Positions 10,201 to 63,945 of a stretch of 64,000 nucleotides of DNA are shown in pieces. The notes beneath the pieces are model-generated. The model was not told where the DNA came from. It saw only the letters and a program-made list of their open reading frames with translations, and did not search any database. The DNA comes from Owenia fusiformis (taxonomy: Eukaryota > Annelida > Polychaeta > Sabellida > Oweniidae), in the NCBI GenBank assembly GCA_903813345.2, contig CAIIXF020000002.1:4132001-4196000 (forward strand), given 5' to 3'. A program made the position numbers and the translations under genes. Positions within the stretch are counted from its first letter, which is position 1; each line of letters starts with the position of its first letter.

Positions 10201-13200
10201 AGGTTTACTATACTATTAGTGTTAATGAAGGTAGAATTGACCATATTGCTTGTATCTTGGAAGACAAAGTTGGAAATACTTCCTGAGATTCAGTGTGTCT
10301 TCCAAATTGTTTCACCTATTTGCTCTTGGTATCGCAATATGTTTTTTATTAAAATAGTTGCTATATGTATCGATTAAGAAATGTATTTATCATTCTTATA
10401 TATAATGTAGACTCCATAGGTCATTGGTTGAAGGTTTACTATACTATTAGTGTTTATGGAGGTAGAATAGACCATATTGCTTGTATCTTGGAAGACGAAG
10501 TTGGAAATATTTCCTGAGATTCAGTGTGTCTTCCAAATTGATTCATCTATTTTTCTCGATGATGTTGCTATTTGGGTTTTATATTATGACTAAAGTAGTT
10601 GCAGGCCATATAGGCATATTTATTATATTTATATTTGGCATCTCCTAAAATTTAATTTGTAATTTACAAAGTCGACAGACATAAGAGAAGATCATGCTGT
10701 TAACTTGTAAATTGCTATATTTGAAATTGCTCATCTTTATTCTTGTGCCCCTCTCCTGATACTATTTTCTAGTACCACAATCTTTACTTACAATTAGGGC
10801 CTGTGGTACCTATAGAGCTTGCAATATAATGCTTTTTTATTTTTCATTTGATTGTTTTCATATTATTAGATTGTGTTAATGTTTGTTTAATGTCAAGGAA
10901 TGTTTGAACAAAAACTTCTTATCCTCGCTAATGGTAGCTACTTCTTGCAAATGATCTTATAATTTATGTTTATCAGTTAGCACATAGAAAAAGAATAAAA
11001 AGAATCTTAAAATCATATTACAGATATCATATTATTGAAATTTAAGTCAGAATTCTATATTAATGTGATATTTCCTTGATAATCACCATTGTGTATGAAA
11101 TATCCCAGAAGCTGTGACAAGACTCAGATTTGTAGCTATAGACATGAATTGTGCAATCTTTTAGTTAAAGAATTCAAAATATTTCAGAAACCATGGCAAG
11201 ATCGAGACTCCTGGCCATTTGAGGCTGCTGAGGTGAATTACTTGAAGGGGGTGTCTCAAATGGAGATGAGGCAATACAATGAGGCACACGATGCTTTCAA
11301 CATGGCATTGAAAATTGATGACAAATATGCAGAGGTAAGACATAAGCTCCATCATAATTACTTGAAGGGGGTGTCTCAAATGGAGATGAGACAATACAAT
11401 GAAGCACATGATGCTTTCAATATGGCATTGAAAATTGATGACAAATATGCAGAGGTAAGACATAAGCTCCATCTAAATTACTTGAAGGGGGTGTCTCAAA
11501 TGGAGATGAGGCAATACAATGAGGCACACGATGCTTTCAACATGGCATTGAAAATTGATGACAAATATGCAGAGGTAAGACATAAGCTCCTTCTAAATTA
11601 CTTGAAGGGGGTGTCTCAAATGGAGATGAGGCAATACAATGAGGCACACGATGCTTTCAATATGGCATTGAAAATTGATGACAAATATGCAGAGGTAAGA
11701 CATAAGCTCCTTCTAAATTACTTGAAGGGGGTCTCTCAAATGGAGATGAGGCAATACAATGAGGCACACGATGCTTTCAATATGGCATTGAAAATTGATG
11801 ACAAATATGCAGAGGTAAGACATGAGCTCCATCTAAATTACTTGAAGGGGGTGTCTCAAATGGAGATGAGGCAATACAATGAGGCACACGATGCTTTCAA
11901 CATGGCATTGAAAATTGATGACAAATATGCAGAGGTAAGACATAAGCTCCTTCTAAATTACTTGAAGGGGGTGTCTCAAATGGAGATGAGGCAATACAAT
12001 GAGGCACACGATGCTTTCAATATGGCATTGAAAATTGATGACAAATATGCAGAGGTAAGACATGAGCTCCATCTAAATTACTTGAAGGGGGTCTCTCAAA
12101 TGGAGATGAGGCAATATAATGAAGCACATGATGCTTTCAATATGGCATTGAAAATTGATGACAAATATGCAGAGGTAAGACATAAGCTCCATCTAAATTA
12201 CTTGAAGGGGGTGTCTCAAATGGAGATGAGGCAATACAATGAGGCACACGATGCTTTCAACATGGCATTGAAAATTGATGACAAATATGCAGAGGTAAGA
12301 CATAAGCTCCTTCTAAATTACTTGAAGGGGGTGTCTCAAATGGAGATGAGGCAATACAATGAAGCACATGATGCTTTCAATATGGCATTGAAAATTGATG
12401 ACAAATATGCAGAGGTAAGACATAAGCTCCTTCTAAATTACTTGAAGGGGGTGTCTCAAATGGAGATGAGGCAATACAATGAAGCACATGATGCTTTCAA
12501 TATGGCATTGAAAATTGATGACAAATATGCAGAGGTAAGACATAAGCTCCTTCTAAATTACTTGAAGGGGGTGTCTCAAATGGAGATGAGGCAATACAAT
12601 GAGGCACACGATGCTTTCAACATGGCATTGAAAATTGATGACAAATATGCAGAGGTAAGACAAATAGAACACTATGATTTCCTCATTGATTTGTGAAAAT
12701 TATGGTTTGTTAATCAATAGATTACATAAAATACACTTACCCTGAACTAAGAGACAAATAGATTCATATTTCTGAATATTTATTTTCTTACTTCAACATG
12801 TCCACTGTGATAATTTCAGATTTTGTGTATATCACAAATGCGAGTACATTAAATAAGTCATGAAACACTTTTTGCGTAGCAGCAATTATAAACTTCCATA
12901 ATTCTTATTTTCTCTTTGCCCATTGTGCTTACATATTTTATATATGATCATATCTGGCATATGTTATAACATATTTAATGCATTAATATTTTTAGGCATA
13001 CTACCAGAGAGGGTTGTCCAGAATGAGGCTTAAGCAGGCCAAAGGAATCCAAGATTTCAACCGTGCCCTTGCACTTGACCCCAAGATATTCCAGGCTTAC
13101 CTCAGCAGGGCAGCTTATTATGGTCTCAGAGGGCAATACAGCAAGGCTATCCTCAATTGTAACGAGGCCATTAAGTTACAACCGAAAAGTGTTAGGGCTT

Positions 13201-16200
13201 ATTTGTATAGGTGGGTATAGTATGTACACCTGTTTGAGAAATTGAAAATTATCTTGGCTCAATAGAAAACTCTCAGATGAGAAATAGCCAGGTCAAATAT
13301 GGTGAAAAACTTGATATGCAAATTATTGGTCATCATTAATCCTGTTTCCAACTTGGTTTATTTCATCATATATGATATAAACATACAGTTTTGCATTATT
13401 GTAGAGGTGCTCTGAAGTTCCACATCAAGGCATACATGCTTTGCTATAAGAGATCTACTCTGTACACATATGTTCTGTATTATTGTAGAGGTGCTCTGAA
13501 GTTCCACATCAAGGCATACATGTTTGCTATGAGAGATCTGTTCTGTACACATATGTTCTGTATTATTGTAGAGGTGCTCTGAAGTTCCACATCAAGGCAT
13601 ATATGCTTTGCTATAAGAGATCTGTTCTGTACACATATGTTCTGTATTATTGTAGAGGTGCTCTGAAGTTCCACATCAAGGCATACACGTTTGCTATAAG
13701 AGATCTGCTCTGTACACATATGTTCTGTATTATTGTAGAGGTGCTCTGAAGTTCCACATCAAGGCATATATGCTTGCTTTAAGAGATCTGTTCTGTACAC
13801 ATATTTTCTGTATTATTGTAGAGGTGCTCTGAAGTTCCACATCAAGACATACATGCTTTGCTATAAGAGATCTGTTCTGTACACATATGTTCTGTATTAT
13901 TGTAGAGGTGCTCTGAAGTTCCACATCAAGACATACATGCTTTGCTATAAGAGATCTGTTCTGTACACATATGTTCTGTATTATTGTAGAGGTGCTCTGA
14001 AGTTCCACATCAAGACATACATGCTTTGCTATAAGAGATCTGTTCTGTACACATATGTTCTGTATTATTGTAGAGGTGCTCTGAAGTTCCACATCAAGGC
14101 ATATATGCTTGCTATAAGAGATCTGTTCTGTACACATATGTTCTGTATTATTGTAGAGGTGGTCTGAAGTTCCACATCAAGGCATATATGCTTGCTATAA
14201 GAGATCTGTTCTGTACACATATGTTCTGTATTATTGTAGAGGTGTAAGAGATCTGTTCTGTACACATATGTTCTGTATTATTGTAGAGGTGCTCTGAAGT
14301 TCCACATCAAGGCATATATGCTTGCTATAAGAGATCTGCTCTGTACACATATGTTCTTTTTTATTATTGTAGAGGTGCTCTGAAGTTCCACATCAAGGCA
14401 TATATGCTTTGCTATAAGAGATCTGTTCTGTACACATATGTTCTGTATTATTGTAGAGGTGCTCTGAAGTTTCACATCAAGACATATATGCTTGCTATAA
14501 GAGATCTGTTCTGTACACATATGTTCTGTATTATTGTAGAGGTGCTCTGAAGTTCCACATCAAGGCATATATGCTGGCTATAAGAGATCTGTTCTGTACA
14601 CATATGTTCTGTATTATTGTAGAGGTGGTCTGAAGTTCCACATCAAGGCATACATGCTTGCTATAAGAGATCTGTTCTGGACACATATATTCTGTATTGT
14701 AGAGGTGCTCTGAAGTTCCACATCAAGGCATATATGCTTTGCTATAAGAGATCTGTTCTGTACACATATGTTCTGTATTATTGTAGAGGTGCTCTGAAGT
14801 TCCACATCAAGGCATACATGCTTGCTATAAGAGATCTGTTCTGTACACATATGTTCTTTTTTATTATTGTAGAGGTGCTCTGAAGTTCCACATCAAGGCA
14901 TACATGCTTGCTATAAGAGATCTGTTCTGTACACATATATTCTGTATTGTAGAGGTGCTCTGAAGTTCCACATCAAGGCATATATGCTTTGCTATAAGAG
15001 ATCTGTTCTGTACACATATGTTCTGTATTATTGTAGAGGTGCTCTGAAGTTTCACATCAAAAAATATATGCTTGCTATAAGAGATCTGTTCTGTACACAT
15101 ATGTTATTTATTATTGTAGAGGTGCTCTGAAGTTCCACATCAAGGCATACATGCTTGCTATAAGAGATCTGTTCTGTACACATATGTTCTTTTTTATTAT
15201 TGTAGAGGTGCTCTGAAGTTCCACATCAAGGCATACATTCTTGCTATAAGAGATCTGTTCTGTACACATATGTTCTTTATTATTGTAGAGGTGCTCTGAA
15301 GTTCCACATCAAGACATACATGCTTTGCTATAAGAGATCTGTTCTGTACACATATGTTCTGTATTATTGTAGAGGTGCTCTGAAGTTCCACATCAAGACA
15401 TACATGCTTTGCTATAAGTGATCTGTTCTGTACACATATGTTCTGTATTATTGTAGAGGTGCTCTGAAGTTCCACATCAAGGCATATATGCTTGCTATAA
15501 GAGATCTGTTCTGTACACATATGTTCTGTATTATTGTAGAGGTGGTCTGAAGTTCCACATCAAGGCATATATGCTTGCTATAAGAGATCTGTTCTGTACA
15601 CATATGTTCTGTATTATTGTAGAGGTGCTCTGAAGTTCCACATCAAGGCATATATGCTTGCTATAAGAGATCTGTTCTGTACACATATGTTCTGTATTAT
15701 TGTAGAGGTGGTCTGAAGTCCCACATCAAGGCATATATGCTTGCTATAAGAGATCTGTTCTGTACACATATGTTCTGTATTATTGTAGAGGTGCTCTGAA
15801 GTTCCACATCAAGGCATATATGCTTTGCTATAAGAGATCTGTTCTGTACACATATGTTCTGTATTATTGTAGAGGTGCTCTGAAGTTCCACATCAAGGCA
15901 TATATGCTTGCTATAAGAGATCTGTTCTGTACACATATGTTCTGTATTATTGTAGAGGTGGTCTGAAGTTCCACATCAATTCATATATATTTGCTATAAG
16001 AGATCTGTTCTGTACACATATGTTCTGTATTATTGTAGAGGTGCTCTGAAGTTCCACATCAAGGCATTCATGTTTGCTGTAAGAGATCTGTTCTGTACAC
16101 ATATGTTCTGTATTATTGTAGAGGTGCTCTGAAGTTCCACATCAAGGCATATATGCTTGCTATAAGAGATCTGTTCTGTACACATATGTTCTTTTTTATT

Positions 16201-19200
16201 ATTGTAGAGGTGCTCTGAAGTTCCACATCAAGGCATATATGCTTTGCTATAAGAGATCTGTTCTGTACACATATGTTCTGTATTATTGTAGAGGTGCTCT
16301 GAAGTTCCACATCAAGGCATATATGCTTGCTATAAGAGATCTGTTCTGTACACATATGTTCTTTTTTATTATAGTAGAGGTGCTCTGAAGTTCCACATCA
16401 AGGCATACATGCTTGCTATAAGAGATCTGTTCTGTACACATATGTTCTTTATTATTGTAGAGGTGCTCTGAAGTTCCACATCAAGGCATTCATGTTTGCT
16501 GTAAGAGATCTGTTCTGTACACATATGTTCTGTATTATTGTAGAGGTGCTCTGAAGTTCCACATCAAGGCATATATGCTTGCTATAAGAGATCTGTTCTG
16601 TACACATATGTTCTTTTTTATTATTGTAGAGGTGCTCTGAAGTTCCACATCAAGGCATATATGCTTTGCTATAAGAGATCTGTTCTGTACACATATGTTC
16701 TGTATTATTGTAGAGGTGCTCTGAAGTTCCACATCAAGGCATATATGCTTGCTATAAGAGATCTGTTCTGTACACATATGTTCTTTTTTATTATAGTAGA
16801 GGTGCTCTGAAGTTCCACATCAAGGCATACATGCTTGCTATAAGAGATCTGTTCTGTACACATATGTTCTTTATTATTGTAGAGGTGCTCTGAAGTTCCA
16901 CATCAAGGCATATATGCTGGCTATTAGAGATATGTTCTGTACACATATGTTCTTTTTTATTATTGTAGAGGTGCTCTGAAGTTTCACATCAAGACATATA
17001 TGCTTGCTATAAGAGATCTGTTCTGTACACATATGTTCTGTATTATTGTAGAGGTGCTCTGAAGTTCCACATCAAGGCATATATGCTGGCTATAAGAGAT
17101 CTGTTCTGTACACATATGTTCTGTATTATTGTAGAGGTGGTCTGAAGTTCCACATCAAGGCATACATGCTTGCTATAAGAGATCTGTTCTGTACACATAT
17201 ATTCTGTATTGTAGAGGTGCTCTGAAGTTCCACATCAAGGCATATATGCTTTGCTATAAGAGATCTGTTCTGTACACATATGTTCTGTATTATTGTAGAG
17301 GTGCTCTGAAGTTTCACATCAAAAAATATATGCTTGCTATAAGAGATCTGTTCTGTACACATATGTTATTTATTATTGTAGAGGTGCTCTGAAGTTCCAC
17401 ATCAAGGCATACATGCTTGCTATAAGAGATCTGTTCTGTACACATATGTTCTTTTTTATTATTGTAGAGGTGCTCTGAAGTTCCACATCAAGGCATACAT
17501 GCTTGCTATAAGAGATCTGTTCTGTACACATATGTTCTTTATTATTGTAGAGGTGCTCTGAAGTTCCACATCAAGTCATATATGCTGGCTATTAGAGATA
17601 TGTTCTGTACACATATGTTCTGTATTATTGTAGAGGTGCTCTGAAGTTTCACATCAAGACATATATGCTTGCTATAAGAGATCTGTTCTGTACACATATG
17701 TTATTTATTATTGTAGAGGTGCTCTGAAGTTCCACATCAAGGCATACATGCTTGCTATAAGAGATCTGTTCTGTACACATATGTTCTTTTTTATTATTGT
17801 AGAGGTGCTCTGAAGTTCCACATCAAGGCATACATGCTTGCTATAAGAGATCTGTTCTGTACACATATGTTCTGTATTATTGTAGAGGTGCTCTGAAGTT
17901 TCACATCAAGACATATATGCTTGCTATAAGAGATCTGTTCTGTACACATATGTTCTTTATTATTGTAGAGGTGCTCTGAAGCTCCACATCAAGGCATACA
18001 TGTTTGCTATAAGAGATATGTTCTGTACACATATGTTCTGTATTGTAGAGGTGCTCTGAAGTTCCACATCAAGGCATATATGCTTTGCTATAAGAGATCT
18101 GTTCTGTACACATATGTTCTGTATTATTGTAGAGGTGCTCTGAAGTTCCACATCAAGGCATATATGCTTGCTATAAGAGATCTGTTCTGTACACATATGT
18201 TCTTTTTGGCTCACACAGTGAGCCTATGGGATTGACCAGGCGTCCGTCCGTCCGTTGGTCCGTCCGTCCGTCCGTTGGTCCGTCCGTCCGTCCGTCCGTT
18301 GGTCCGTCCGTCAACATTGGCCGCACAAATTAAAACTGCTATTCGGATTGAGTCCTATCCACATTCATTTTATGCATATCCATAATGCCTATTTGACCTA
18401 TCATCGCCATTTCCCAAGTTCGCCCAGTTTCCGAGAAATTGCGGATTTTGACGTCAAAAAGTCAAATTTTCTGTAAATACTAGACACTTTGTTGAAGTAG
18501 AACTTTCAAATACCTTTTAGTAGTTGGTGTATATGCAACTTATGTCCTTTGAAGATTTCAAAGCTCTTGGAATTACGGTTTTTGGTGTTTACTCTATAAA
18601 ATTTGAAAAAAAGTAGGACTTAGTTATTTTCAGGAAACTTTCTCATGTATAAAGTCAATGGCAGGTTTTGTGATTGACAAGATTCTTAAAGTTTGCCTTA
18701 TACTTGATCATTTCCTGCAATAAATTACATCATTAATAGATTTAAGCATTCCCTACATATTTCTCAATATATGTCAGCATTATTTTTCAACTTGCTTCAA
18801 TTTGACCAAATTCTTTTTTGAAAATCATCTACAAGTTACCAGGAGTTCAAATCTGACATTAGTTTTAGGATTTGACCTTTACTTGACCTTCAGTGACCTT
18901 CGAAAGGTCAAAAAAGTTGATTATTCAAATTGATTTTTGGATGTAAATTTTGGTCAGCTTAATCACAAAAGACCTTACTGAGCTCTGAATAAGTAAAATT
19001 TTCAAGGTCAAAGGTCATCAAACTAGGTCACACAACTATGCTATCTAAGTTTCTCAAAGTTCGAGACTACAAATCCAAATTAATATTTTTGTTTGAAAGT
19101 CAGGATATAAATTCCTCTGAAGTTTCCAAACTGTGTGAGCATAGGACCGTGGGACCTTCATTTATTATAGTAGAGGTGCTCTGAAGTTCCACATCAAGGC

Positions 19201-22200
19201 ATACATGCTTGCTATAAGAGATCTGTTCTGTACACATATGTTCTTTATTATTGTAGAGGTGCTCTGAAGTTCCACATCAAGGCATATATGCTGGCTATTA
19301 GAGATATGTTCTGTACACATATGTTCTGTATTATTGTAGAGGTGGTCTGAAGTTCCACATCAATTCATATATATTTGCTATAAGAGATCTGTTCTGTACA
19401 CATATGTTCTGTATTATTGTAGAGGTGCTCTGAAGTTCCACATCAAGGCATTCATGTTTGCTGTAAGAGATCTGTTCTGTACACATATGTTCTGTATTAT
19501 TGTAGAGGTGCTCTGAAGTTCCACATCAAGGCATATATGCTTGCTATAAGAGATCTGTTCTGTACACATATGTTATTTATTATTGTAGAGGTGCTCTGAA
19601 GTTCCACATCAAGGCATATATGCTTTGCTATAAGAGATCTGTTCTGTACACATATGTTCTGTATTATTGTAGAGGTGCTCTGAAGTTCCACATCAAAGCA
19701 TATATGCTTGCTATAAGAGATCTGTTCTGTACACATATGTTCTTTTTTATTATAGTAGAGGTGCTCTGAAGTTCCACATCAAGGCATACATGCTTGCTAT
19801 AAGAGATCTGTTCTGTACACATATGTTCTTTATTATTGTAGAGGTGCTCTGAAGTTCCACATCAAGGCATATATGCTGGCTATTAGAGATATGTTCTGTA
19901 CACATATGTTCTGTATTATTGTAGAGGTGCTCTGAAGTTTCACATCAAGACATATATGCTTGCTATAAGAGATCTGTTCTGTACACATATGTTCTGTATT
20001 ATTGTAGAGGTGCTCTGAAGTTCCACATCAAGGCATATATGCTGGCTATAAGAGATCTGTTCTGTACACATATGTTCTGTATTATTGTAGAGGTGCTCTG
20101 AAGTTCCACATCAAGGCATACATGCTTGCTATAAGAGATCTGTTCTGTACACATATATTCTGTATTGTAGAGGTGCTCTGAAGTTCCACATCAAGGCATA
20201 TATGCTTTGCTATAAGAGATCTGTTCTGTACACATATGTTCTGTATTATTGTAGAGGTGCTCTGAAGTTTCACATCAAAACATATATGCTTGCTATAAGA
20301 GATCTGTTCTGTACACATATGTTATTTATTATTGTAGAGGTGCTCTGAAGTTCCACATCAAGGCATACATGCTTGCTATAAGAGATCTGTTCTGTACACA
20401 TATGTTCTTTTTTATTATTGTAGAGGTGCTCTGAAGTTCCACATCAAGGCATACATGCTTGCTATAAGAGATCTGTTCTGTACACATATGTTCTTTTTTA
20501 TTATTGTAGAGGTGCTCTGAAGTTCCACATCAAGACATACATGCTTGCTATAAGAGATCTGTTCTGTACACATATGTTCTTTTTTATTATTGTAGAGGTG
20601 CTCTGAAGTTCCACATCAAGGCATACATGCTTGCTATAAGAGATCTGTTCTGTACACATATGTTCTTTTTTATTATTGTAGAGGTGCTCTGAAGTTCCAC
20701 ATCAAGGCATATATGCTGGCTATTAGAGATATGTTCTGTACACATATGTTCTGTATTATTGTAGAGGTGCTCTGAAGTTTCACATCAAGACATATATGCT
20801 TGCTATAAGAGATCTGTTCTGTACACATATGTTATTTATTATTGTAGAGGTGCTCTGAAGTTTCACATCAAAACATATATGCTTGCTATAAGAGATCTGT
20901 TCTGTACACATATGTTATTTATTATTGTAGAGGTGCTCTGAAGTTTCACATCAAAACATATATGCTTGCTATAAGAGATCTGTTCTGTACACATATGTTA
21001 TTTATTATTGTAGAGGTGCTCTGAAGTTCCACATCAAGGCATACATGCTTGCTATAAGAGATCTGTTCTGTACACATATGTTCTTTTTTATTATTGTAGA
21101 GGTGCTCTGAAGTTCCACATCAAGGCATACATGCTTGCTATAAGAGATCTGTTCTGTACACATATGTTCTGTATTATTGTAGAGGTGCTCTGAAGTTTCA
21201 CATCAAGACATATATGCTTGCTATAAGAGATCTGTTCTGTACACATATGTTTTTTATTATTGTAGAGGTGCTCTGAAGTTCCACATCAAGGCATACATGT
21301 TTGCTATAAGAGATATGTTCTGTACACATATGTTCTGTATTATTGTAGAGGTGCTCTGAAGTTCCACATCAAGGCATACATGTTTGCTATAAGAGATATG
21401 TTCTGTACACATATGTTCTGTATTGTAGAGGTGCTCTGAAGTTCCACATCAAGGCATATATGCTTTGCTATAAGAGATCTGTTCTGTACACATATGTTCT
21501 GTATTATTGTAGAGGTGCTCTGAAGTTCCACATCAAGGCATACATGCTTGCTATAAGAGATCTGTTCTGTACACATATGTTCTTTTTTATTATTGTAGAG
21601 GTGCTCTGAAGTTCCACATCAAGGCATATATGCTTGCTATAAGAGATCTGACAGAGGCAACTAAAATAGACAACCAGTGTTCACTCGCCTACTTCAACAG
21701 GGCTGTGTGCTATCATGAAAGCAAGGATTATGCAAAGGTACAACAGAACAACAAAATAAATTACTACAGTCTAAATTAAGAGTTGTGATAATAACATTTA
21801 AATAGTCCATCTTCCTTTATACATTTGACCCAAAAATAACCGTTCGAGGTTGCACTCATGAATTTTCAAAAACATCTAAAATCAGTTAATACTTCAAAAG
21901 CAAATAGATGTTCAAAATAAATAACTACAGTCTCAATTAAGTGTTGTGATTATAACATTTGAATAGTCCATCTTAACTTTATACATTTGACTTAAAGTAC
22001 CCTTAGAGGTTACACTGAGGAATTTTTCAAAAACATTTAAAATCTATTTTTTCATTTATATTTCAACAAATCAAATTGATAGAAATAGACATGCAAATTA
22101 CATTAGAAAGAAACAAGCTGAAAATTAATTTGGTATGATAAGAAATTTACAACAATTAATCTACAACTTTTTACAGGCCTTGAATGATTATGGAATTGTT

Positions 22201-25200: not shown

Positions 25201-28200
25201 AAATTTGGGTATTTGTTATCACAATGTTAATATAGGATATCCTTTACTTTTAAGTGATTAAAACCAGTGGCATATTCTCTGTATTATTATGTCACCATAA
25301 TAACATATTGTTATGGCTTTGAACCTTTTTGAGGATGGTGTTCGGCGGTTGGCATCTGTAACAAATGGCAGGTGGTGACATTTTGCATGTTAATGCCTTG
25401 TAGGGATTTTGCATAATTGCATGCTATCATATACATTTAACCTCAACTCTGGGATGAATTGAAATACAGATATTCAAGTAAGAGTAATCCCAACGAACGA
25501 AGTTCGTTAGGGATATAGTGAAGCCCTCCGTCCGTCCGTCCGTCTGTCCGTCAGTCCGTCAGTCAGTCAGTCAGTCCGTCCGTCTGTCCGGAAGATAACT
25601 CAAATACTAGTTGACAGATTTTCTTCATATTTAGTGGAAAGATGTATATTGGTGAATAGTTTTACGCAAAAAAAAAAATTTTCAAGATGGCCGCCGCTTT
25701 AAAAATGACGGGACTTTTTCGCAAAAATCATAAATTTTTCATTCTAAACCAAAGTAATTAATATTATTGTTTGAAATTTTGGTAGTGTATTCACAAGATT
25801 TATCTATTTCACATATATTCCGTGTTTTTCATCCTGACCCCCAGGGGACATGTATGGGGGGACAGGAAAACAGAAATTTTCGCTAATTTTTAGATCTTTC
25901 TGAAGTATAGCTTTATTATACTCAAATGAAAGGCAATTAAGAGTAGATTGCAAATATTGTATCTTTTTTCTGATTCGAGCCTCGTAAAATTCAAAATGGC
26001 CGTCTAATGTACGATTTCGCAATAATTTTTCGATCCCTTCAAAGTATGGCTATATTATACTCAAATTGAAGGAATTTTGGAGTAGATCACAATTATGGTA
26101 TTATTTTTCAGATTTGTACCTCAGAAAATTCAAAATGGCTGCTTTGCAGGAATTCGCAATTCTAAAATCTAATTTTTTCATTTTCAACCAAAAGTAATGA
26201 GTATAATTGATTGGAATTCGGTAATTGATATTTTATTCGTTGGGATTTGCTACTCTGCGGAGTTGCCGTTATCTAGTTGTAATCCATCTCAATCTGTCCC
26301 TATTTTATAATGTAAACAGTTGTTGCATATTACTTTTATCTGTTTCAGAAATGACTATCAGAGAACCTTAAAATTAGATCCCACATGTCTCCAGGCCAGA
26401 GTTAACCTGGCGTACAATCTACAGGTTACTGGGAAATTCCAGTTGGCATGGCAACAGTTTACATTGGCCATTGAGATTAATCCAAGTAAGGCATATCATA
26501 GTTCATACATGTTCTCTTATATTCTTCAGTCACTTTGTCTAAGCAATAAGTAAGTTAAGCTAATTTTAAAAGAATGACCAATTCAGAACCAAATATGCTT
26601 GTAAATTTAATAGTATAATTAGTGTACGCATTATATGGATACAAAAGCAAAAGGATCAACCACTACAGTGTACAGCAGAAGTGAATCTATACAGTATACC
26701 TAGTTTATTAAAACATACTGAGTCATTGGGAATAATTGACTGCAACAAGAACCAATTGGTCAATCTAATAAAAGGTTATTTCATGAACCTGTATATGCTA
26801 TACCCTTATATAGTGCAATACACTGTAAGTTGTAATATCTTTGTTTCAGAATTCAAACCTGCCCTTGAGGGTAGAGCAATAGTGAACCTTCAAATGTCAG
26901 ATAAGTTTGCAGCATACCAAGACATCAATACCTCTGTGAATATATCTCCAACTGCAGAATTACTGAATAATTAACATGTATTCTCCATACTGTATAATTA
27001 ACATGTATTCTCCATTAGTTGTAATATTTATATATTTGTTTCAGAATTCAAACCTGCCCTTGAGGGTAGAGCAATAGTGAACCTCCAAATGTCAGATACA
27101 TTTGCAGCATACCAAGACATCAATGCCTCTGTGAATATATCCCCAACTGCAGAACTAGTGTATAATTAACATGAATTCTCCATACTGTATAACTAACATG
27201 TATTCTCCATTAGTTGTAATATTTATATATTTGTTTCAGAATTCAAACCTGCTCTTGAGGGTAGAGCAATAGTGAACCTCCAAATGTCAGATACATTTGC
27301 AGCATACCAAGACATCAATACCTCTGTGAATATATCTCCAACTGCAGAATTGCTGACAAACAGGGGAGTCATACACCAGGTACAACACTATACCCATCCA
27401 GTATTTTATGAGCCTCGCCATAGGAAAACCGGTCTTATCACAAATATTGTGCATCAGAACCAAAAATGTGCCCAAGATTTAGAGGAAAATGTGCTCAATT
27501 TAAATCCATCTATTTGGTCTATATCTGCAAGGAAAAAGTGTTAAGACACAAGCCATGGCTCATTTGAAAGGTCTTTTTGTGCTTTTTAATAAAAACAAAA
27601 AAAATCAAAACATTGTATTTACTCCATCATAGAATTATGCTACCACTATTGCTTGGCCACAGGTTTAATTCCCAGTTCAGACAAAATCTCTTTGTGCATG
27701 ATGTAATTCAGGGTGTTTGACTGGTCCACAACTTGTCTATGGTGTGTACTTGTACATGTATGTTTGTGTACCGTTACACATAAAAGAACTCTGGAAACTT
27801 CAAGGAGGGGTTTCTGTCTCTGTTTTCGAGTGTAAAATACATAACATTTGGAATATACCAATGAGGTATTACTTGACTAAAATAAAGCAGTAAACAAAAT
27901 ACAAAAACGAGTAGATTGACCAATGGCGTTCCCACTTCTTACGCTATTGAAAATACTAATAAAGCATGATTTATTTATTTCAGTACATGAATGATAGAGC
28001 CAATGCAATGCGGGATTACCAGTCTGCTATAAAATTAGACGCCACTTATTCTCTAGCTTACTTCAATTCTGCAAATGTCTACTTTGCAATGAGGCAGTTC
28101 AAACAGGTAAAAATTTGTTTGATCTTATTTGATAATTGAATTTGATATTTGATTCAAGATCTGCTTTATACTTATAGTATTATATTATCTTTTACACATG

Positions 28201-35345: not shown

Positions 35346-35694
35346 CTGAAAGTAAGTATACTGAATGCTTCACCACTCTTTCAAAGTACATCGAAGGCAC
35401 ATTTTACCATTTTCAAAGAACATCAAAGGTATAAGTTCACTGAATATATATCATCTTTATCCCTTTTTCAAAGTACACTGACGACATATAATGTCTCTAA
35501 TAAGTACACTTTATCCGTCTTTCAAAGAACAATAAAGTAACATTTTGATCCCTTTCAATATACAACATACAATGTAGGCATATCTTGACATTTTTATAAG
35601 TACACTGAAGGCATATGATGAGACCCTTCAAAACAATGAAAACATAGGTTTACTTTTTTATGACTACATCATGTACACTTAAGGCATATTTGCG

Positions 35695-36262
35695 TAGTGT
35701 TTGCAAACACTGACCCCTGATTACAATGAGTCTATAATGGAGAAGACAAGACATATCCTTAAGATTGCACTTTCCTGGCTATAACACACCTATATGCATG
35801 ATCAAAATAAAGATTCAGCACTTTTGTATGCGTACACTTTGCGTATTGCGTAGACTGTTTGCAAAAACTGACCCCTGACTACGAGTACAATAAGCTATTA
35901 TGGAGAAAGCAAAACTTATCCTTAAGATTGCACTTTCCTAGCTATAACACACCAATATGCATGATCAAAATAAAGATTCAGCACTTTTTATGCGTACACT
36001 TTGCATATTGCGTAGACTGTTTGCAAAAACTGACTTCTGATTACGAGTACAATAAGGCTATTATGGAGAAGACAAGACTTATCCTTAAGATTGCACTTTC
36101 CTAGCTATAACACACCAATATGCATGATCAAAATAAAGATTCAGCACATTTTATGCGTACACTTTGCGTATTGCGTAGACTGTTTGCAAAAACTGACCAT
36201 TGATTACGAGTACAATAAGCTATTATGGAGAATACAAGACATATCCTTAAGATTGCACTTTC
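35695..36262 (-). repeat. Four tandem copies of the TRMT9B C-terminal coding end and 3' UTR
   Basis: On the minus strand the true end of TRMT9B (...[14 protein letters not shown], stop at 36247-36249) is followed by three more copies of the last ~20 codons and stop. They encode [20 protein letters not shown]-like peptides, each followed by the same ~100-bp tail. The stop-codon region (TTAAGATTGCAC on the plus strand) is at 35759, 35922, 36084 and 36247, spaced 163, 162 and 163 bp. The extra copies lie downstream of the first stop, so they would be 3' UTR. Confidence 0.9.
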
Positions 36263-39200
36263 CTAGCTATAACACACCAATTTGCATGATCAAAATAAGA
36301 TTCGAGCACTTCAAGCTCTTTGACGTGTTTCTCGATTAAACGGACTAGCTCGCCTTTCTTAAAGACATGATAATAGCGTTGATACTGCCCCGGCAGTTCC
36401 TCAGTTGTTTCAACATTCTTTGTCCCTGAGATTGATTTATTTTTGTCCATGTTTCGTTTCTCGAAGCTTTGTTTCCTAGTGCTATGTTTCGGAATATTGC
36501 GCTTGATTTCTGGCTGATTTCCATCCTGTGCATTTTGCGATATAATTGCGTCTTTGATCGATTCTGGCATATTAGTGATATACTCGGAGGAATGCATTGT
36601 TGCGTCACTCAATGATTGAGTAGTAAGCATCTTTTCACGATTTGGTACGTCACGTAAAGTGCCGTTTCTCTGTATGCGTGATGTAGAGAGTTCGACTGAG
36701 CAATTTTCTGCTTGTACTTTGAGATCAGATTTATTGTGACGCTTATCTGAGCAATTATCTGTCCCAGCCTCACTTTCAATTTTCTCAGAACGAGGCTGTG
36801 GTCTACTGCTTTGGGGAAATTCCCTCACTTGGAATACTTCATCACCAATATCAGAGAAAATATCATTTTCCGTTCCGAAATGGTGGCCCTCGTGTTCCAC
36901 GATATGATGTATGAGTTTCTGGTAAACCTTATCTCTGTTTGGAGTGTCATCTTCAGCAGATGTCTCTGATTTGGAACGTTTCTTGGTGATCTTCGACACG
37001 ACAAAATCAAGTAAATTGAACGATCGCTTTTCCTCCGAAGCTGATTTTTTCTCCTTGTACATCTGTCTCATTTGAGAGTGGCATTCACATTTAGGTGTTT
37101 CAGGGGAAATGGTCTTAGGTATAAAAGTGTCAGTGAAAGTAGTCCCAAGTTTGTGGGAATTTGATTTTACATTACCGGCACCAGTGATTTTACTCTCGCA
37201 TTTATGAGCAGGAGTCCCAGGTAAGGAAGTCCCACGTGTAGATGAATTTTTCCCAGAAACAAATGTCCTAGGGGAGAAAGTCTCTGTTGCAGGTACAGAG
37301 TAGCTTCTTTTAACTTTCTCCTTATTTGGTGACAAAAATGGACGGAAATCGGAGGTAAAGCGCGTAACAGTCGGAGTTTCATACACAGCTTCACAAGTAG
37401 CTGAATCCCTGAGTGTAACGTGACTAGTGTCCTTGACCTTTCCTACAGCGTTGCTTATCTCGGGATCCACTCCCGATTTAAACCCCTGTGTTAAAGTCTG
37501 TATGCTGGAAAGGATTCTCAATGCTTCCTGTCGCAAGGATGACTTCCTGTTGTGAACCTGAATTTCATCCCCCGGATCACGCGAACTATCGGTACCACTC
37601 GATGCGCTTTCTCGAGTTGTGGAACTTTCAGATTCGCTTCCAGTTTCAAGGCTTTGATCGGAAACACTGCTGTCAAAACTTCCTTGTTTAGGGAAATCAT
37701 CGTCACTGATGGAGCTTGTACTGGAGATCTTGTATTCACCACGTTGTTTGCTGCTGTTACCTGCAAAATAGCACGAGGTTTGTTTTAAAGAGAGATCTTG
37801 TATTCACCACATTGTTTGGTGCTGTTACCTGCAAAATAGCATGAGGTTTGTTTTAAAGAGAGATCTTGTATTCACCACGTTGTTTGCTGCTGTTACCTGC
37901 AAAATAGCATGAGGTTTGTTTTAAAGAGAGATCTTGTATTCACCACATTGTTTGGTGCTGTTACCTGCAAAATAGCATGAGGTTTGTTTTAAAGAGAGAT
38001 CTTGTATTCACCACGTTGTTTGGTGCTGTTACCTGCAAAATAGCACGAGGTTTGTTTTAAAGAGAGATCTTGTATTCACCACGTTGTTTGGTGCTGTTAC
38101 CTGCAAAATACAATGATTTATGTTTTAAAGTCATCGTCACTGATGGAGCTTGTACTGGAGATCTTAAACCTGTCTAATCCAAACTATACTGAGAACCATC
38201 CAAATTAGTATTAGTATTGGCACTAATATGGGACTGGTCAAAAGTGTTCAGATTAGCAGGTGTTCACATTTCAAGGTTTTATAAACATGTAAGTCAATGG
38301 GAGATAACAAATTTGATATCGAGAAAAAGTGTTCACATTGAGAGGTGTTCAGATAGTTTCACTATACTATGAACTTCAACTCATGTCAGAGTATCAAAAA
38401 CTACATAAACTTTTTTTTATTCATTACTTTATTTACTACATAAACTCATATAATGGGGAGGATTTGACAGGACTCGAGTGTGACATCTTTATATTTACTA
38501 CACACTTTAATTTAACATTTTAACCAGGTTCAGCAATTAAATGTTTACTATGGAAAGAATTCTATGATATGCTATTTTTGTGCTGAAATAAAATAATATT
38601 ATAAGTTATTGAATGATTTGAAGTGCAATACAGGATATATTCTCCTCGTGAAATTTCGTATTGGAACGAGACGAAGTCGAGTGCCAATACAGAATATCAA
38701 GAGCAGAATATATCCTGTATTGCACTTCAAATCATTCTATAACGTTTTTATCGTCTGATCCTCTGTATTGCTAGTTGCTAATGAGAATGTCCCCTCCATA
38801 CCAATATTTTCTGCATTGCGACAGAGATGATTAATGGGGACAATCTCAATAGCAATACAGATTGGTACAGCACAAGAAATGACCAATCAGAAGGCTTCAT
38901 GTTACAGATCATACAATAAAAATGTATAAGACTACTCACTTCTTCTTCGTCTATGTCTCGGATGTAACTGCCACGGAACTAGGATATCCTGAGCTTCAAA
39001 CTAAAATATAAAACAAGTATTATTGTAACAATATTTCATCACATGCAAATGATAACAAAATTGTAACAATATGTCACAAATGATGCTGAACACTTGTTAC
39101 ACAAATAGAGAGCTGAACAATAAGTTTGAATTCACTTATCAAGTATGTGGAGTCATCCACAGTGTTGTGACTTGGATAAATAGTACAATAACGTCATTTC

Positions 39201-42200: not shown

Positions 42201-45200
42201 TCTAATATACTGAATACATATATCACCCTATATATTTTATAATTTACTCACAAAAGGTGTATTGATGTACAGTAAAACATGTAAAGTGGAACACCTCTGA
42301 AAGTTGAACACCTCTGTAAGTTGAACACTTCAGAGTCTCATGATCAACTGACTTAATGATAAATGAAACCTCTATAAGTCGAACACCTCACAAGTAGAAC
42401 ACTTATTAAAAGTGCCACAGGTGTTCTACTTATACAGGTTTTACTTTACTTGCAAAAAGTCTGATTTCGCATTCACCAGAAAATATTTTACATGAGATTG
42501 GTTTCTTAGAAAGGAAAAAATACAAAAATATTTTGTCATTTATACTGAACAGTATTGTGACTTATTCAACCTAATAGCAAATATTTGAAGTACAGTAAAT
42601 AGGTCATAACTTTAATTTCAAAAACTGAAAACATATTGGTTAAATTTTTATTGGTTGTTTCATGACCATGTAAATAAGGTTAACAATGAATATAAATTAA
42701 TCATAAAATATACAATATTTATTGTCTCATTGTTAGGCATGACACTATATTTCAACAATGTTTACTCAATGTTTTTGATTTACCATTATTTCGATGAGTA
42801 CAATAAATGTATGAACATTTGTAACTACAGCGTTTTAATATACATGGCTTAAGCAACAACTTTCGAATTTCCTGAAAATTTAATGGCGAAAGATGCGGGC
42901 CAAGCGAGCGGTGATTTGGGTGGGTCCTCCCTCCTAAGAAATTTTGGGGAAAGAGATTTGATTGAGTGCTTTTTACGAGTTATATAGACTCATTACAAAT
43001 ACTTTTAAATTTAGAAGAAAAATCAAATATGACCTTATTTAATAACTCTTGTTTGACCACCTATCCCCCTTCCCCTATAAAACCCAGATTTGTATTGAAC
43101 TCAATAGGGTCAGATTTTGGTCCATTTTTTCCTGAAATTTCCTGAAATTCCTAAAGACTTTAAGCCATGTACAGTATATCCACAGGGGCTGGGGGAACCC
43201 AATATATAATCCTGACGTGGGGGTGACCTCTTTATATGATGATCAATCTGATTTTCAGAATTAAATATTTTATATTTTTACTTGTAATAAATAAAATGGT
43301 ACATCACAGATTCAATTATTAATTTATTTATTAAAGTTCTATCTATTTTTCAATTATAATTTCCCATGAAATGTTAATATTGCAAGGCAGTTTGATCTGT
43401 AGATGAATGAAAAAACTGAGAGCCACGATAAATTAAGATGTTATCCATTCTTTAGACAACTTATATGCATGCCGTGGATCTCACAATGCAGTTTAAGTGA
43501 ACATGAGTGTAATTCGAAAGGAACTAGATGAAGATTCATGAAATTAAAATTGCATATAATAAGAGTCAGAAAACTAAAAAGTAAATCTTTATTAGTTAAT
43601 GAAAACACAGAATTAAATCATAGGCTATAAGGACTGATCTGAAAAAGTCAGTCCACTCCAGTGCGGATCAAACCCATGACCCCTCGCTTACAATACAAGG
43701 TGATTGAAAGTGTCATAAACAGATGCTATTTTAAAGGGTTCCGATTAGCATCCCGTATAAAAACAATATGGCGGCTCCAGGCAAATCAACTGGATCAGTC
43801 CATTTTTAAGAAATAAGGGGAGTTCTGTAAAATCCAGTTTATTGAAATTGTCTTTGAGATAAAGTAATCCGTTTATAATGATTTTGAAAACGTTATCCAA
43901 AGAGTGATTGCGTTCAAAGAATACATGTACAACAGCCAATATAAATCCTTGTATTAGAAACCGGTTTGTCTTGCTTTGTTTCATTTGTAGGATATTTCAT
44001 ATGCCAAGCTGTGTGCTATTACGTTATGGGGAAATTTAGATGCCAATTTATCCTTATTGTACACAAATAGAAGATCCTAAAACTTCACCCATAAATGTGG
44101 AATTGATTTGTCAAAATAAAAATCACCCTTTTATAAATGTGTGACGATCTATAATATTCTTATGCTATATAACAGTTAGAGGTGTTGACACAACGACCTC
44201 GAACCTGTGAACCCTTGAGTATTATTCCGGGATCGGGCCTTTTATACTAAACGGTGAGCAACACCAGAAACGAGCGTTCGATTTGCTAAACGATATGCGT
44301 CACCCTTTAAACAAGGGATTCAAAACAATGCATTCTTCATAAATACTTCAGAAGCATAAAATCAAATTTCATATTTACACAGTATGTTAAGAGTATTTTC
44401 AAAAGCTTTGTTTTTGCTTTGTAGGGAAAACATGTGTTAATTGTTAGCTTTAGAAATTGTTTTGATTTTAGCTCTCAGCTTTTAAAATCAATACAAAGCA
44501 ATGATAGACACTGAATCCTGATCTGAGAAATCAAATTTTCTTAAAATAAATCTGTAGTTATACTGGTACATAAAAGGTAAAAATTCATGTACAGTAAAAT
44601 ATGTGTATCTAAACACCTCTCTTATCTGAAGATCTCTTCATGTGAACACATTTTCTTGGTTTTCCCATTGATTCGCATATAAAGTAACCTTGAAATGTGA
44701 ACACTTGATTCACATATAAAGGAACCTTGAAATGTGAACACCTTTCTTGGTTTTCCCATTGATTCGCATATTAAGTAACCTTGAAATGTGAACACTTGAT
44801 TCACATATTAAGGAACCTTGAAATGTGAACACTTGATTCACATATTAAGGAACCTTGAAATGTGAACACTTGATTCGCATATTAAGTAACCTTGAAACGT
44901 GAACACTTGATTCACATATTAAGGAACCTTGAAATGTGAACACTTTTCTTGGTTTTCCGATTGATTCGCATATTAAGTAACCTTGAAATGTGAACACTTG
45001 ATTCACATATTAAGGAACCTTGAAATGTGAACACTTGCTAACCTGAACACTTCGCAATGAACACCTTTTGTTGGACTCAAATTGATATCTCCCTTTAACT
45101 CACATAAAAGAAACCTTAAAATGTGAACATGTAGGGGATGGAGGGGAAGCCAATAAAAATATGGGTACTCTCTGTTCAAACAAAGAGTATACATAAACTA

Positions 45201-47535: not shown

Positions 47536-47539
47536 CTGA

Positions 47540-47925
47540 AATACATCAAATAACACATGGGATAACACCATGAAATAACATTCTAGGCGGTCATGCCATG
47601 GGGCTGTAACACAGGTATCTACGAGGCACCATTAAATAAACCATTGGATAATGCATTGAACAATACATGGAATAACACGGGATAATACAGTCATTGAATA
47701 ATACATGGAAGAACACCATGGAATAACACATTGAATAATACATGGAATAACACATTGAATAATACATGGAGTAACACCATGGAATAACGCATGGAATAAC
47801 ACCATAGAATAACATATTGAATAATACATGGAATAACACCATGGAATAACATATTGAATAATACATGGAATAACACCATGGAATATCACATTGAATAATA
47901 CATGAAATAACACCATGACACGATG
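47540..47925. repeat. Minisatellite plus copy of the TRMT9B start-codon region
   Basis: GGTCATGCCATGGGGCTGTA through ACACAGGTATCTA at 47589-47621 repeats the start-codon region 47452-47484, 137 bp away, with the initiator changed (plus-strand CAT to TAT, so ATG becomes ATA). From about 47630 it passes into a degenerate array of GAATAATACATGGAATAACAC units. Minus-strand frames across it (MVLFHVLFN...) are repeat artefacts. Confidence 0.8.
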
Positions 47926-56687: not shown

Positions 56688-56729
56688 GGGAACAACAACA
56701 TTAACAACATTAGAAATCAGAGACTGGCC

Positions 56730-60149: not shown

Positions 60150-63100
60150 ATGGCTGTCAACATTTGCAGAAAACTTTCGCAACAGAAGGATTTATCACAA
60201 TTACAAAGGTTTTACAAGGTAATAAAGTATACTAATGTGTGATGTCGGTAGATCAGCTACCTTGTCTAGTACTAATGGGTTTATAAATAGAAATAATAGC
60301 GGGAGTAGACCTATTATAATATTATTATTTTTATGTTTTAATTTTTTGATAATTTTTTATTTTAGAGTCAATACGTCCAAATCCAAACAGGGGGGTAAAC
60401 ACGAACGGGTTCCAAATAATGGCAAGCAGATCATTGAATTGAATAATAGTACCTCTACTACCTCTACATAATATTTATAGCCTGAAAGATACAATATAAT
60501 GATGTATACCAACAATCTTATAATAAAATAATCAATTATGATGATTTAGGTGTTCGGAATTACCCCCATGCTAGTGTTTGGAATTACCCCCACAAACTCT
60601 GTGCGTTTAAATAACGTAAAGGCTAGAGTACCGACAATTGTCGGTACTCTAGACTCTGATGTGGTGGCACGCTAGAGGACCGACAAATGAATTGTCGGTA
60701 CGGGAGATATGCTGTGTTTACACGCTAGAGGACCGACAAATATTGATTTTCGAATTTTCTGGCGCATGCGCAACGCGCGGGGGATATTTCAGATATCATA
60801 CGGATATTTTGGGAACAAGTGCAAAACCCGGGGAGGGCATTAGCCCCGGTTACCCGGGGATTACCAAACCCAGTCAAAAAATGGTAGCCCGGGAAAAGGG
60901 AATGGTAGTCAACGTTGAAAACCTAATAAAAAACATGAACAAGTAAGACTTTAGAGAGCTATTAATGTAGAGTAAACGGCTATATATATTCTAAACAGAC
61001 AGGATATTTCTCCTGAGCCGATCAGGCGTAGAAAGGGGCGTTTGCTACCCATTAGATAGAAGAAAATAGCTAGAATGTTTTTTATTTGAAGCTTATGGTA
61101 TGAGGTTCCATATCCATCCTATATAGTCCATTTAAAAACCTGTGGTATCGTTCTAAATAACCCATAGTTGGCTTCTAGGGTACCTAGTATGCCACTATTT
61201 GGTATCAAAATAAAGAGGAGTTCAACTTTCATATGAATTACGAAAATAGCGATGTAGGTCAAAATAGTTCCGAACGTGAGCATGTTTGTTTACTACGCGT
61301 TTGCCCGTCATATCAGAATTGAGGAAGTGGTAGCAAACGCGAGTTGCAATAAACGGATGCTGATATCTCAAAAAGTAACCTGACTCCCTATAATTCGATG
61401 TAGGTCAATCGAACCCCTATACGGACAGGTGCATTTTGATATATAACACTATGGGGGGTAAGCGTTTCATAGTTGGTCACGAAACGCCATATGTGCAAAG
61501 TATTGTTATGAATTTTCGAATTTGGTGTTGGATTATGGTACTCATACCTTAACACAATTTTTGATGGAAGTTGCATTTGGCTCCCTTAGTTAATGGCCAC
61601 GATTCCATCTCGCATGAGAGAGCTACCAAATGCAAAGTAAACAGTGATATATTCCAAATGAGATATTTCTCCTATGCCATGGCGTAGTAAGGGTAGAGAG
61701 CTACGGGGGCGAAAGCATCCCCTCCCCTAACTGTATATATCGACCCATTAGATAGAACAAGAAAAGAGCTTTAAAATGTTTTTTAATTGAAGCTTGTAGG
61801 ACAATTTTGATGGAAGTTGAATCAATTTTTGTCGAAATAAATTATGGCTCACTACAAGTTAATGCCTGTACGATTCCATACTGCAAAAGAAGCACTATGA
61901 CCCCCCCCCCCTCAAAAGAAAAAAGTAGGTCCTGACGGGATTCGAACTCGGGAACGAGTGTGTCCGAGTCATGCTCGCTAACCACTAGGCTACCAGTGAT
62001 GAGGTTATTTTTGACTAAGAAGTAGTGGATTTATTTATGAAATTGTCGGCTCTCTAGCAAAAACACGTAGCAGCCACTTGCGTACCGACAATTGTCGGTT
62101 CTCTATCTGGCACTACTAGGTGACGATAGAGTGCCGACAATTGTCGGTACCCCAGCAAATACCCCTGGACAGTCTCCAGTACCGACAATTGTCGGTCCTT
62201 GAGCCACTCCGTTTAAATAAATAGATGTCAGTAATAAATGATTTAAATTTGGGTTTCTTGATATGCAGGGGTGACAGGATCCAGTATCATAAGTTAAAGG
62301 TATCATATAATGATATACCATCAATCTAATAATTAAAACAATTAAGTTTAAGTTAAGTGTTTGGAATTACCCCCATGCAAGTGTTCGGATTTACCCCCCA
62401 AAAAAACTCCTGTTCGGAATTACCCCCCTAAAATACCTTGTAGTAAAAATGGAATAACCCAGATATTTTTTACAATTTTTCGTAATTTTTTCTGCAAATG
62501 CATTCTACAGTGGATTATACACATAATATATATAGAATCATAGCATAGATGTGCAGTACAGCCAAGCTAACTACATTTTTTGATGGGGGTGTTTGGAAAT
62601 AGACGTACTGACTCTATTTTTTATCATCATCGGTGATCATTTGGAGGGGGAGGCAGATCATCGTCATCATTTACTGAACACACCTGTCTTTATGTTAAAA
62701 GCTGAGCCATCATTCATTGAATCATCATCATCATTTGGGTACTGTAGCTGTTAGGCTTGCCTGTTGTCGCTACACTCGTTTTGTAGATCTATTTATCAGT
62801 TAAACTGATTCTGATGTACTGTATCTATTTTTAGTCAAACTGAACTCGTGAGCCCATTTATCACTGAAATGCGTGCTTATTTCCTTGAGCAAAGTTTAGA
62901 TTCCGAACTGTCGGAACCGATTCAGGTACAGCCATACTCAGAGTTACACCTGTAGTGCTTATAGCGTAGCGTTACAATTTGTGTTTCAATTAACTTATAT
63001 TGTTGTAATGACCCAAGGGTGCCCCAAGGGAATGACTAACTAATGAGTATAAAGTATAGCCAGATACAGAGAATGAAAGAAAGTGCTCTAAATTGAACGG

Positions 63101-63822
63101 CCATTGTGGGAATCAAACCTAAGACCCTTAGATCCAATGACTATTGCTTTACCAACTAAGCTCATGAAGGCTTTAGACACTACAGCTGGGTAGTAGTAGC
63201 AACTTGCTATCAGGGATCATTACATTATCGATGGTTACCTTATTTTGTTCCTTAGTAGCTTATTTAATTCTATCAAATGTTGTATCACTATATAAAAAAA
63301 GTTAAAGGCAGAATCTGATCTATATGGGGTGATAAGATTACAAGCAACATGTACTATTGACCAACCAATCTATTCCTTACAATATCAAATACAATATCTC
63401 CCAAAAATTCACAATGTGTTATAAATTGGTGAAGTTATTAATGATTCAAAGTGCAAAAATGAGTGAATTAAGTATGCACTTTTGTGATTTTTAGAAAAAA
63501 AACATGACAATGAATGACATGAGCCAAAAAATATTCTAAAATTGAAACAATTTTTTTGTTAAGCCTGCTCACTATATCTGATTCTCTCTTTAAACCCATC
63601 GAACCCCCCCCCCCCCCCCCTAGCTACGGATCTGTACTACCATACTAAAAGTATCCTAATTACATTGTAGGCCTCAACAAGTATTACAAGAGGATATGCG
63701 AACCTAACTGATGACCAAAAACAAATGTTGGAGAATGGTCCTAACCTTGGAGACTTCATAGAGAATGATGGCAAAGACTGGAAAGAATATAAAGGCAATC
63801 TTCTGAAGAAAAAAGGAGAAAA
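60150..63822 (+). CDS. LIAS: Lipoyl synthase, mitochondrial (N-terminal part, two exons in window)
   Basis: Exons 60150-60218 and 63671-63822 encode MAVNICRKLSQQKDLSQLQR through the family-typical N-terminal segment LTDDQKQMLENGPNLGDFI and DWKEYKGNLLKKKGEK, which precedes the radical-SAM core in LIAS proteins. The enzyme inserts sulfur into octanoyl groups to make lipoyl cofactors of mitochondrial 2-oxoacid dehydrogenases and the glycine cleavage system. The basic, Ser/Gln-containing N terminus fits a mitochondrial transit peptide. The ATG has A at -3 and G at +4 and an in-frame TGA four codons before it. Exon 2 ends with two bases of the next codon (donor GTAAGT at 63823). The cysteine motifs and catalytic domain lie beyond the window. 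The exon 2 donor edge is duplicated downstream. Confidence 0.93.
60485..62425. mobile_element. Repeat block with ACCGACAATTGTCGGT palindromes at both ends
   Basis: Outer direct repeats (about 60495-60595 and 62306-62400, sharing AATGAT...ATACCA and GTGTTTGGAATTACCCCC) enclose about 1.7 kb. Near each inner edge are palindromes: 60623-60652 is a perfect 30-bp palindrome (CTAGAGTACCGACAA and its inverse), with diverged copies at 60672-60701, 60724-60740, 62042-62056, 62082-62106, 62127-62150 and 62179-62198. Internally GATATTTCTCCT...CCCATTAGATAGAA...TGAAGCTT is repeated at about 61003-61095 and 61664-61795. No transposase was recognised. It lies in LIAS intron 1. Confidence 0.65.
61925..62005 (-). 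repeat. tRNA-like sequence (SINE head or tRNA relic)
   Basis: The minus strand reads GGTAGCCTAGTGGTTAGCG (A-box-like) and, about 35 nt on, GAGTTCGAATCCCGTCAGG (B-box-like). Acceptor-stem halves do not pair, so it is probably not a functional tRNA gene. It lies within the palindrome-bounded block. Confidence 0.5.
63090..63170 (-). repeat. tRNA-like sequence (probable SINE head)
   Basis: The minus strand has GAGCTTAGTTGGTAAAGC (A-box-like) and GGTTTGATTCCCAC (B-box-like) at tRNA-like spacing, with ATTGGATCTAAGG between them. No convincing cloverleaf. It lies in LIAS intron 1. Confidence 0.5.
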
Positions 63823-63945
63823 GTAAGTGCATTAAGATTTTAAAGGGGTTATTTAGTACAAAGATTGGAAAGAATACAAAGGCAATCTCCTGCAGAAAAA
63901 GGGAGAAAAGTATGTGTATATAGATTTTAAAGGGGTTATAGTATT
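63772..63945 (+). repeat. 87-bp tandem duplication of the LIAS exon 2 end and donor
   Basis: CAAAGACTGGAAAGAATATA through GGAGAAAAGTAAGTG and AGATTTTAAAGGGGTTA is repeated 87 bp downstream as CAAAGATTGGAAAGAATACA, GGAGAAAAGTATGTG and AGATTTTAAAGGGGTTA. The second copy has its own GTATGT donor. Extending the exon to it would meet an in-frame TAA in the intron part, so it is probably not used in the full-length product. Several mismatches suggest it is older than the TTC6 arrays. Confidence 0.9.

Follow-up and report, generated by a model that had tools for sequence, protein, structure and literature searches.

In a 64,000-bp window of the genome of the annelid Owenia fusiformis (contig CAIIXF020000002.1, positions 4,132,001 to 4,196,000), the genes TTC6, TRMT9B and LIAS carry tandem arrays whose repeat unit spans the edge of an exon or of the coding sequence. 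We consider it likely that these arrays are mirages, that is, minisatellites of an exon edge that arose in place, expanded later and are tolerated because an intact copy of the exon remains. The observation is sound and extends beyond the window, and the kind of structure is already known from amphioxus. All results come from the sequence of one genome assembly (498 Mb, 525 contigs), of which contigs C1 to C12, at 31.9 to 62.2 Mb each, make up 477 Mb. A muscle myosin read from this assembly scores highest against scallop and squid myosins (598 and 584 bits), ahead of those of vertebrates (up to 554) and arthropods (up to 526), which points to a spiralian, and the erythrocruorin-linker domain of annelids is present above its cut-off (38.1 against 27 bits); COX1 gave no match in the assembly. 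The genes of the window were identified by matches to TPR, methyltransferase and LIAS_N domains, with a tRNA methyltransferase as the best solved relative; beyond these matches, the names TTC6 and TRMT9B are those of a first-pass annotation that had been made without database searches.

Tandem arrays at exon edges in TTC6, TRMT9B and LIAS

The first-pass annotation had listed six strong arrays at exon or coding-sequence edges, and Tandem Repeats Finder (TRF) and self-BLAST located all six where it had placed them. The units of five span an exon-intron boundary, and the sixth spans a stop codon. Arrays across an edge are called mirages below. The arrays in TTC6, with their exons, are the following (window coordinates):

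11188..11334, plus strand: TTC6 exon KPWQ...KYAE, its 3' end and donor duplicated (splice-site and frame scan, sequence)
11236..12662, plus strand: donor-edge mirage, 120 bp x 11.9 (12 copies), 97% match (TRF, self-BLAST)
13388..21650, plus strand: acceptor-edge mirage, 83-87 bp unit (TRF, self-BLAST)
~18204..19160, strand not applicable: unrelated stretch of ~950 bp inside the preceding array, with a CCGT-rich part (TRF, BLAST)
21599..21737, plus strand: TTC6 exon GALKFHIKAYMLAIRDL..., where one copy of the array runs on into the full exon (sequence, splice-site and frame scan)
26835..27356, plus strand: acceptor-edge mirage holding the acceptor and most of the exon, 195 bp x 2.7 (TRF)
27240..27379, plus strand: TTC6 exon EFKPALEG...GVIHQ, which is the functional copy in the 195-bp array (sequence, splice-site and frame scan)

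The 120-bp unit consists of 99 bp of exon end and 21 bp from the donor onward. Its reading frame is open in 12/12 copies, and copies 3, 6 and 9, which are not adjacent, are identical to one another and to copy 12 over the shorter length of the latter. Splicing after copy 1 would yield a canonical TPR junction, KYAE|AYYQRG, and from the sequence copy 1 should be the functional one. An open frame of 537 codons (11083-12693) spans the entire array and, if translated, would give a 40-residue TPR-like repeat.

In the second TTC6 array, the unit holds an acceptor and ~50 bp of exon start. The exon start is present in 87 copies (the BLAST matches number 88), and the AG is retained in 87/87. The ends of the unrelated stretch at 18204-19160 resemble GTGAGC/GCTCAC, and the insert is probably a mobile element. 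In the 195-bp array, a stop is reached when copies 1 and 2 are read through.

TRMT9B and LIAS carry the remaining arrays:

35673..36311 (TRF 35690-36311), minus strand: TRMT9B stop-codon-edge array, ~163 bp x ~4 (3.9), with additional copies past the stop codon (TRF, self-BLAST)
37694..38165 (TRF 37724-38130), minus strand: last TRMT9B exon with an acceptor-edge mirage, 68 bp x 6.0; one extra exon piece lies at ~38125-38160 (TRF, self-BLAST)
63671..63822, plus strand: LIAS exon, LIAS_N domain (domain match, sequence)
63772..63939, plus strand: LIAS donor-edge mirage, 87 bp x 1.9, copies 89% identical (TRF, self-BLAST)

Tandem duplications confined to introns, which the first-pass annotation had also noted, do exist, and these three among others serve for comparison:

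10146..10552, strand not applicable: intron-only tandem duplication, 231 bp offset (self-BLAST)
21752..22044, strand not applicable: intron-only tandem duplication, 161 bp (TRF, self-BLAST)
25884..26160, strand not applicable: intron-only duplication, 139 bp, 76% identity (TRF)

Two weaker cases in the first-pass annotation fared less well. A 141-bp duplication at the donor of TTC6 exon 24 was not found; the nearest candidate is the intronic duplication at 25884-26160, which is perhaps the source of that claim. No 137-bp duplication at the TRMT9B start codon appeared in a scan that omitted hits on eight known arrays, some beside exon 1 (44640-45037, 45441-46256 and 47549-47917 among those omitted), and that covered the region beside exon 1 in part. 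Between TRMT9B exons 1 and 2 there are minisatellites at 45532-46236 (17 bp x 41) and 44640-45037 (37/92-bp units).

Mirages recur around kinesin, myosin and SNF2 exons

Repeat-blind profile searches placed the exons of three gene families (kinesin, myosin head and SNF2) in the assembly, giving a sample of 276 kb around 247 matched exons. For kinesin and myosin, 200 exons were kept from 240 matches and taken together with 650-bp flanks on both sides (115 stretches, 226,584 bp). Kinesin provided 118 of 147 matches, those dropped being 17 further copies of a mirage on C2 and 12 that apparently run through introns, mostly with several stops; myosin provided 82 of 93, the other 11 being further copies in an exon array on C9. 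For SNF2, 65 of 80 matches were kept (of the others, 6 apparently run through introns, 4 are further copies belonging to one mirage and 5 come from C124, a small contig), and 20 of the 28 stretches were drawn at random, with 47 of the 65 exons and 49,890 bp.

With the unit set to at least 45 bp, TRF gave 34 arrays, after L098 had been dropped as the far end of the array in L107. Sixteen of them overlap a matched exon and cross its edge, and none of these 16 is wholly internal. Four more (L001, L028, L030 and L131), judged by eye, cross the edges of exons that the profiles had left unmatched, the exonic part in L131 being just 8 bp. By this combined reading of coordinates and sequence, 20 of the 34 sampled arrays are mirages with a boundary-spanning unit, and the other 14 have no visible exon-edge crossing.

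One kinesin exon start is present in 18 copies of a 159-bp unit; copy 18 alone runs on into the exon, and each of the 17 decoys meets an in-frame stop. An SNF2 exon start is copied five times and is visible as such in the profile-search table. A scan of the acceptor arrays of window and sample except L023 and L131 (17 of 19), which misses copy starts with more than two mismatches, shows AG at 176/178 of the copy starts found; of the two exceptions, one is a spurious hit that lies outside the array in TRMT9B. This near-complete retention was considered as a sign of decoy function, which we do not claim.

Arrays cross exon edges more often than random placement of a unit predicts

A comparison of tandem repeats with permuted positions had been proposed in the first-pass annotation, and run on the sampled exon surroundings with single units it shows an excess at edges. 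The null used places one unit of every array at a random position within the stretch it came from, and takes in unit length and exon length. Among arrays with a unit of at least 45 bp, 16 cross an edge against 7.0 expected (p=0.0003, ~2.3-fold), and none is wholly internal against 3.1. Among the 49 arrays with units of 20-44 bp, 7 cross an edge where 2.4 are expected (p=0.01) and none is wholly internal where 6.9 are; of the 40 arrays with units of 7-19 bp, one is wholly internal against 5.0. The excess persists at 14 against 6.25 (p=0.001) without L041 and L136, loci matched several times by the exon searches, and in the kinesin and myosin part 13 of 26 arrays cross an edge against 5.3 expected (p=0.0004).

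Of 13 arrays taken from the window, 6 overlap an exon where 2.5 would be expected (p=0.025, with rough exon limits and in a window picked for the finding). These 13 were chosen from the TRF and self-BLAST results with units taken as 65-231 bp; 44640-45037 (37/92 bp) was included, whereas dispersed repeats and arrays whose basic unit measures 12-31 bp were excluded.

Copies within edge arrays resemble one another more closely than those of the other arrays do (median match 95% versus 88%, p=0.0036), and within stretches edge arrays have slightly more copies (4.0 versus 2.7, p=0.05).

Variants in spare copies lean synonymous, and three units searched match their own array only

We examined variants in the spare copies of 22 of the 26 mirages (6 from the window, 20 from the sample); the SNF2 arrays L131, L133, L136 and L143 were not included. 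The p-values are rough, since variants count as independent in this test and the transition excess is held fixed. Synonymous variants made up 43/97 against an expected ~26% (p=0.0001). The proportion was 38/76 (p=0.00001) without the 83-bp TTC6 array, and 26/62 (p=0.006) when the 120-bp TTC6 array and the kinesin array were removed as well. In these two arrays, the variable sites of the exon part were synonymous in 6/6 cases for the 120-bp TTC6 array and 6/8 for the kinesin array with its in-frame stops. Functional copies differ from all of their spare copies at 12 synonymous and 8 non-synonymous positions.

Since the synonymous excess is present even where copies carry in-frame stops, the spare copies have probably been re-derived from the functional exon. 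Judging from the variants, they have probably been derived from it repeatedly, or exchange with it, and inherit its history. Translation as a needed cause of the synonymous-only variation in the 120-bp TTC6 array is weakened by the stop-bearing kinesin array.

Three units were searched against the whole genome and gave 88, 12 and 3 matches, each set confined to its own array. For these three, an origin from a dispersed transposon or satellite was rejected, which supports the arrays being independent of one another and the first-pass view that they are not a single transposon family. Because the units are absent elsewhere in the genome, these arrays arose in place.

Probable origin and tolerance of the arrays

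A mirage would be born by a small tandem duplication straddling an exon edge, possibly of the microhomology type, and would subsequently grow by unequal exchange or slippage. When one edge has been duplicated, the intact exon would be retained by the copy nearest the exon body at an acceptor, and by the first copy at a donor or stop codon. Extra copies would thus fall outside the coding part, in the intron or 3' untranslated region: upstream of the exon at an acceptor, downstream at a donor or stop codon. The array layouts read in the window, in the sample and in the kinesin array fit this arrangement, and in the arrays read to that end a single copy runs into the full exon (copy 18 of 18 in kinesin, 21599-21737 in TTC6).

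With their extra copies in non-coding sequence, edge arrays are expected to do no more harm than intronic ones. The decoy splice sites would be ignored by splicing, and edge arrays would be tolerated like intronic arrays, probably through the one exon-edge copy that always stays intact; arrays inside an exon would be removed by selection since they alter the protein. The shortage of internal arrays fits selection against them. The edge excess can accordingly come from this selection (0 against 3.1 expected) together with faster turnover of edge arrays through exchange with the conserved exon.

Several results weigh against this reading, and a number of them favour an account in which geometry and detection bias are sufficient. 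Detection bias had been raised in the first-pass annotation, on the ground that copies of exons are easy to recognise. With a unit about the length of an exon, a duplication that touches an exon will in most cases have to cross an edge. Plain exon overlap is raised weakly, to just 16 against 10.1 (p=0.022, or p=0.053 without L041 and L136). No edge excess is seen in the 40 arrays with units of 7-19 bp (2 against 1.0, p=0.26), the SNF2 part alone is non-significant (3/8 against 1.7, p=0.22), and random placement of whole arrays in the first sample gave no excess either (13 observed against 15.3 expected, p=0.9); we judged this last null unsuitable because arrays grow in place. The edge-crossing statistic was itself defined after sight of the first sample, and the sample's exon limits are ends of profile matches, not annotated junctions, so that edges are approximate. 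The 87-copy TTC6 array, at 5/21, shows no synonymous excess. Geometry does explain part of the pattern, and unit length accounts for much of the edge-crossing, yet a roughly two-fold edge excess remains: TRF is blind to exons, and its arrays exceed a null that already includes unit and exon length. Bias is seemingly not the whole story, and as a full explanation we regard it as improbable.

A process linked to the boundaries themselves, also suggested in the first-pass annotation as a replication or repair mechanism, would make exon edges hot spots. Exon edges, and above all 3' splice sites, would break or switch template more often, through their pyrimidine tract, R-loops or co-transcriptional events. 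The ~2.3-fold excess agrees with this, and so does the lower divergence of edge arrays, as if they were younger. Acceptors are moreover copied in 19 arrays and donors in 6 (16/20 in the sample, p=0.012; 19/25 with the window, p=0.015), by labels that were assigned by eye and as a bias observed post hoc. This acceptor excess is beyond what tolerance alone explains, and counts against our preferred account too. However, the same edge excess is obtainable from selection and homogenisation, and the 14 sampled arrays without a visible crossing count against a boundary-linked process as well; we think such a process unlikely. We give a similarly low probability to a broader version, in which exon edges, chiefly 3' splice sites, are hot spots of duplication and turnover fed from the functional exon, the arrays are a partly shuffled history of that exon, and at least one array, the 12-copy one of TTC6, has been, or could be, taken up as coding repeats.

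That the 120-bp TTC6 array is translated as 40-residue TPR-like repeats, with the exon ending at the last donor, is conceivable but doubtful. The frame open in all copies and the exclusively synonymous variation of the exon part are what translation would predict; the lean of the stop-bearing kinesin array in the same direction indicates that the signal can arise without it, and ordinary splicing after copy 1 would give a canonical TPR junction. False tandem copies introduced by assembly are very improbable. The amphioxus literature cuts both ways, since one mirage was misassembled in a draft (PMC3087553), while re-sequencing of the PGBD5 repeats argued against assembly error (PMC3902484). In Owenia, the copies differ by many variants in shuffled, higher-order patterns and the structure recurs in unrelated genes. 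We therefore retain exon-edge minisatellites, born in place and tolerated, as the likely explanation.

Comparison with known systems

The closest counterparts are the mirages of amphioxus, which have been described as minisatellite-like tandem copies of an intron/exon boundary in globin, Adh3, troponin C and PGBD5 genes, with 60- and 108-bp repeats at the splice sites of PGBD5 (PMC3087553, PMC3902484 for PGBD5). Regular splicing was reported to be undisturbed (PMC3087553, PMC3902484); RT-PCR (reverse transcription PCR) pointed to normal splicing, instability of length was observed, and mirages were proposed as a source of new introns (PMC3087553). The two systems are alike in that both edges are copied and splice signals are kept in many copies. 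Units measure ~10-160 bp in amphioxus and 53-260 bp in Owenia. The Owenia arrays differ in occurring in an annelid, in reaching 87 copies, in including one at a stop codon, and in coming with a sampled frequency and placement tests; they are known from DNA alone. A literature search of partial coverage found no report on mirages in an annelid, those found being on amphioxus genes.

Other systems share some of these features. In the Rogers model, introns are gained by tandem duplication (PMC4974935); there too a small tandem duplication carries splice signals, whereas the Owenia units hold an existing junction, their spare copies are apparently non-coding and no new intron is inferred. Human variable internal tandem repeats at exon-intron boundaries can alter introns and belong to recent segmental duplications, with 30-bp units on average (PMC2812944). 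They are likewise boundary minisatellites; the Owenia cases lie in ordinary genes and have longer units. For earthworm metallothionein genes, duplicated fourth exons that are absent from the transcript are reported (PMC12783039).

Mutually exclusive exons also consist of tandem copies of an exon region. One muscle-myosin exon (profile ~27-81) is present at C9:37986009-37994334 (L087, L123) in twelve diverged copies at irregular spacing, several with splice-like flanks, and from their sequence this set looks like a large mutually exclusive exon array. Its copies look complete and diverged, in contrast to mirage copies, which are truncated; those of TTC6 and kinesin are truncated on one side.

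Should mirages prove common in an annelid, certain animal genomes may have them as a general feature. They would then keep supplying spare splice sites and sequence from which new introns or exons can be made, could mislead gene predictors, and would offer a natural test of how the spliceosome chooses among up to 87 near-identical sites. The excess at edges, the bias toward acceptors and the surplus of synonymous variants among spare copies are predictions that can be tested genome-wide with transcripts.

Other repeats of the window

A 198-codon open reading frame lies at 29030-29623, with a similar reading on the opposite strand adjoining it at 28820-29069. We take this frame to resemble the GIY-YIG nuclease of a Penelope-like element. 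At 62000-62230 there is a dispersed repeat of ~220 bp with a short internal palindrome, which was matched at 40 scored places out of 387 candidates across large contigs.

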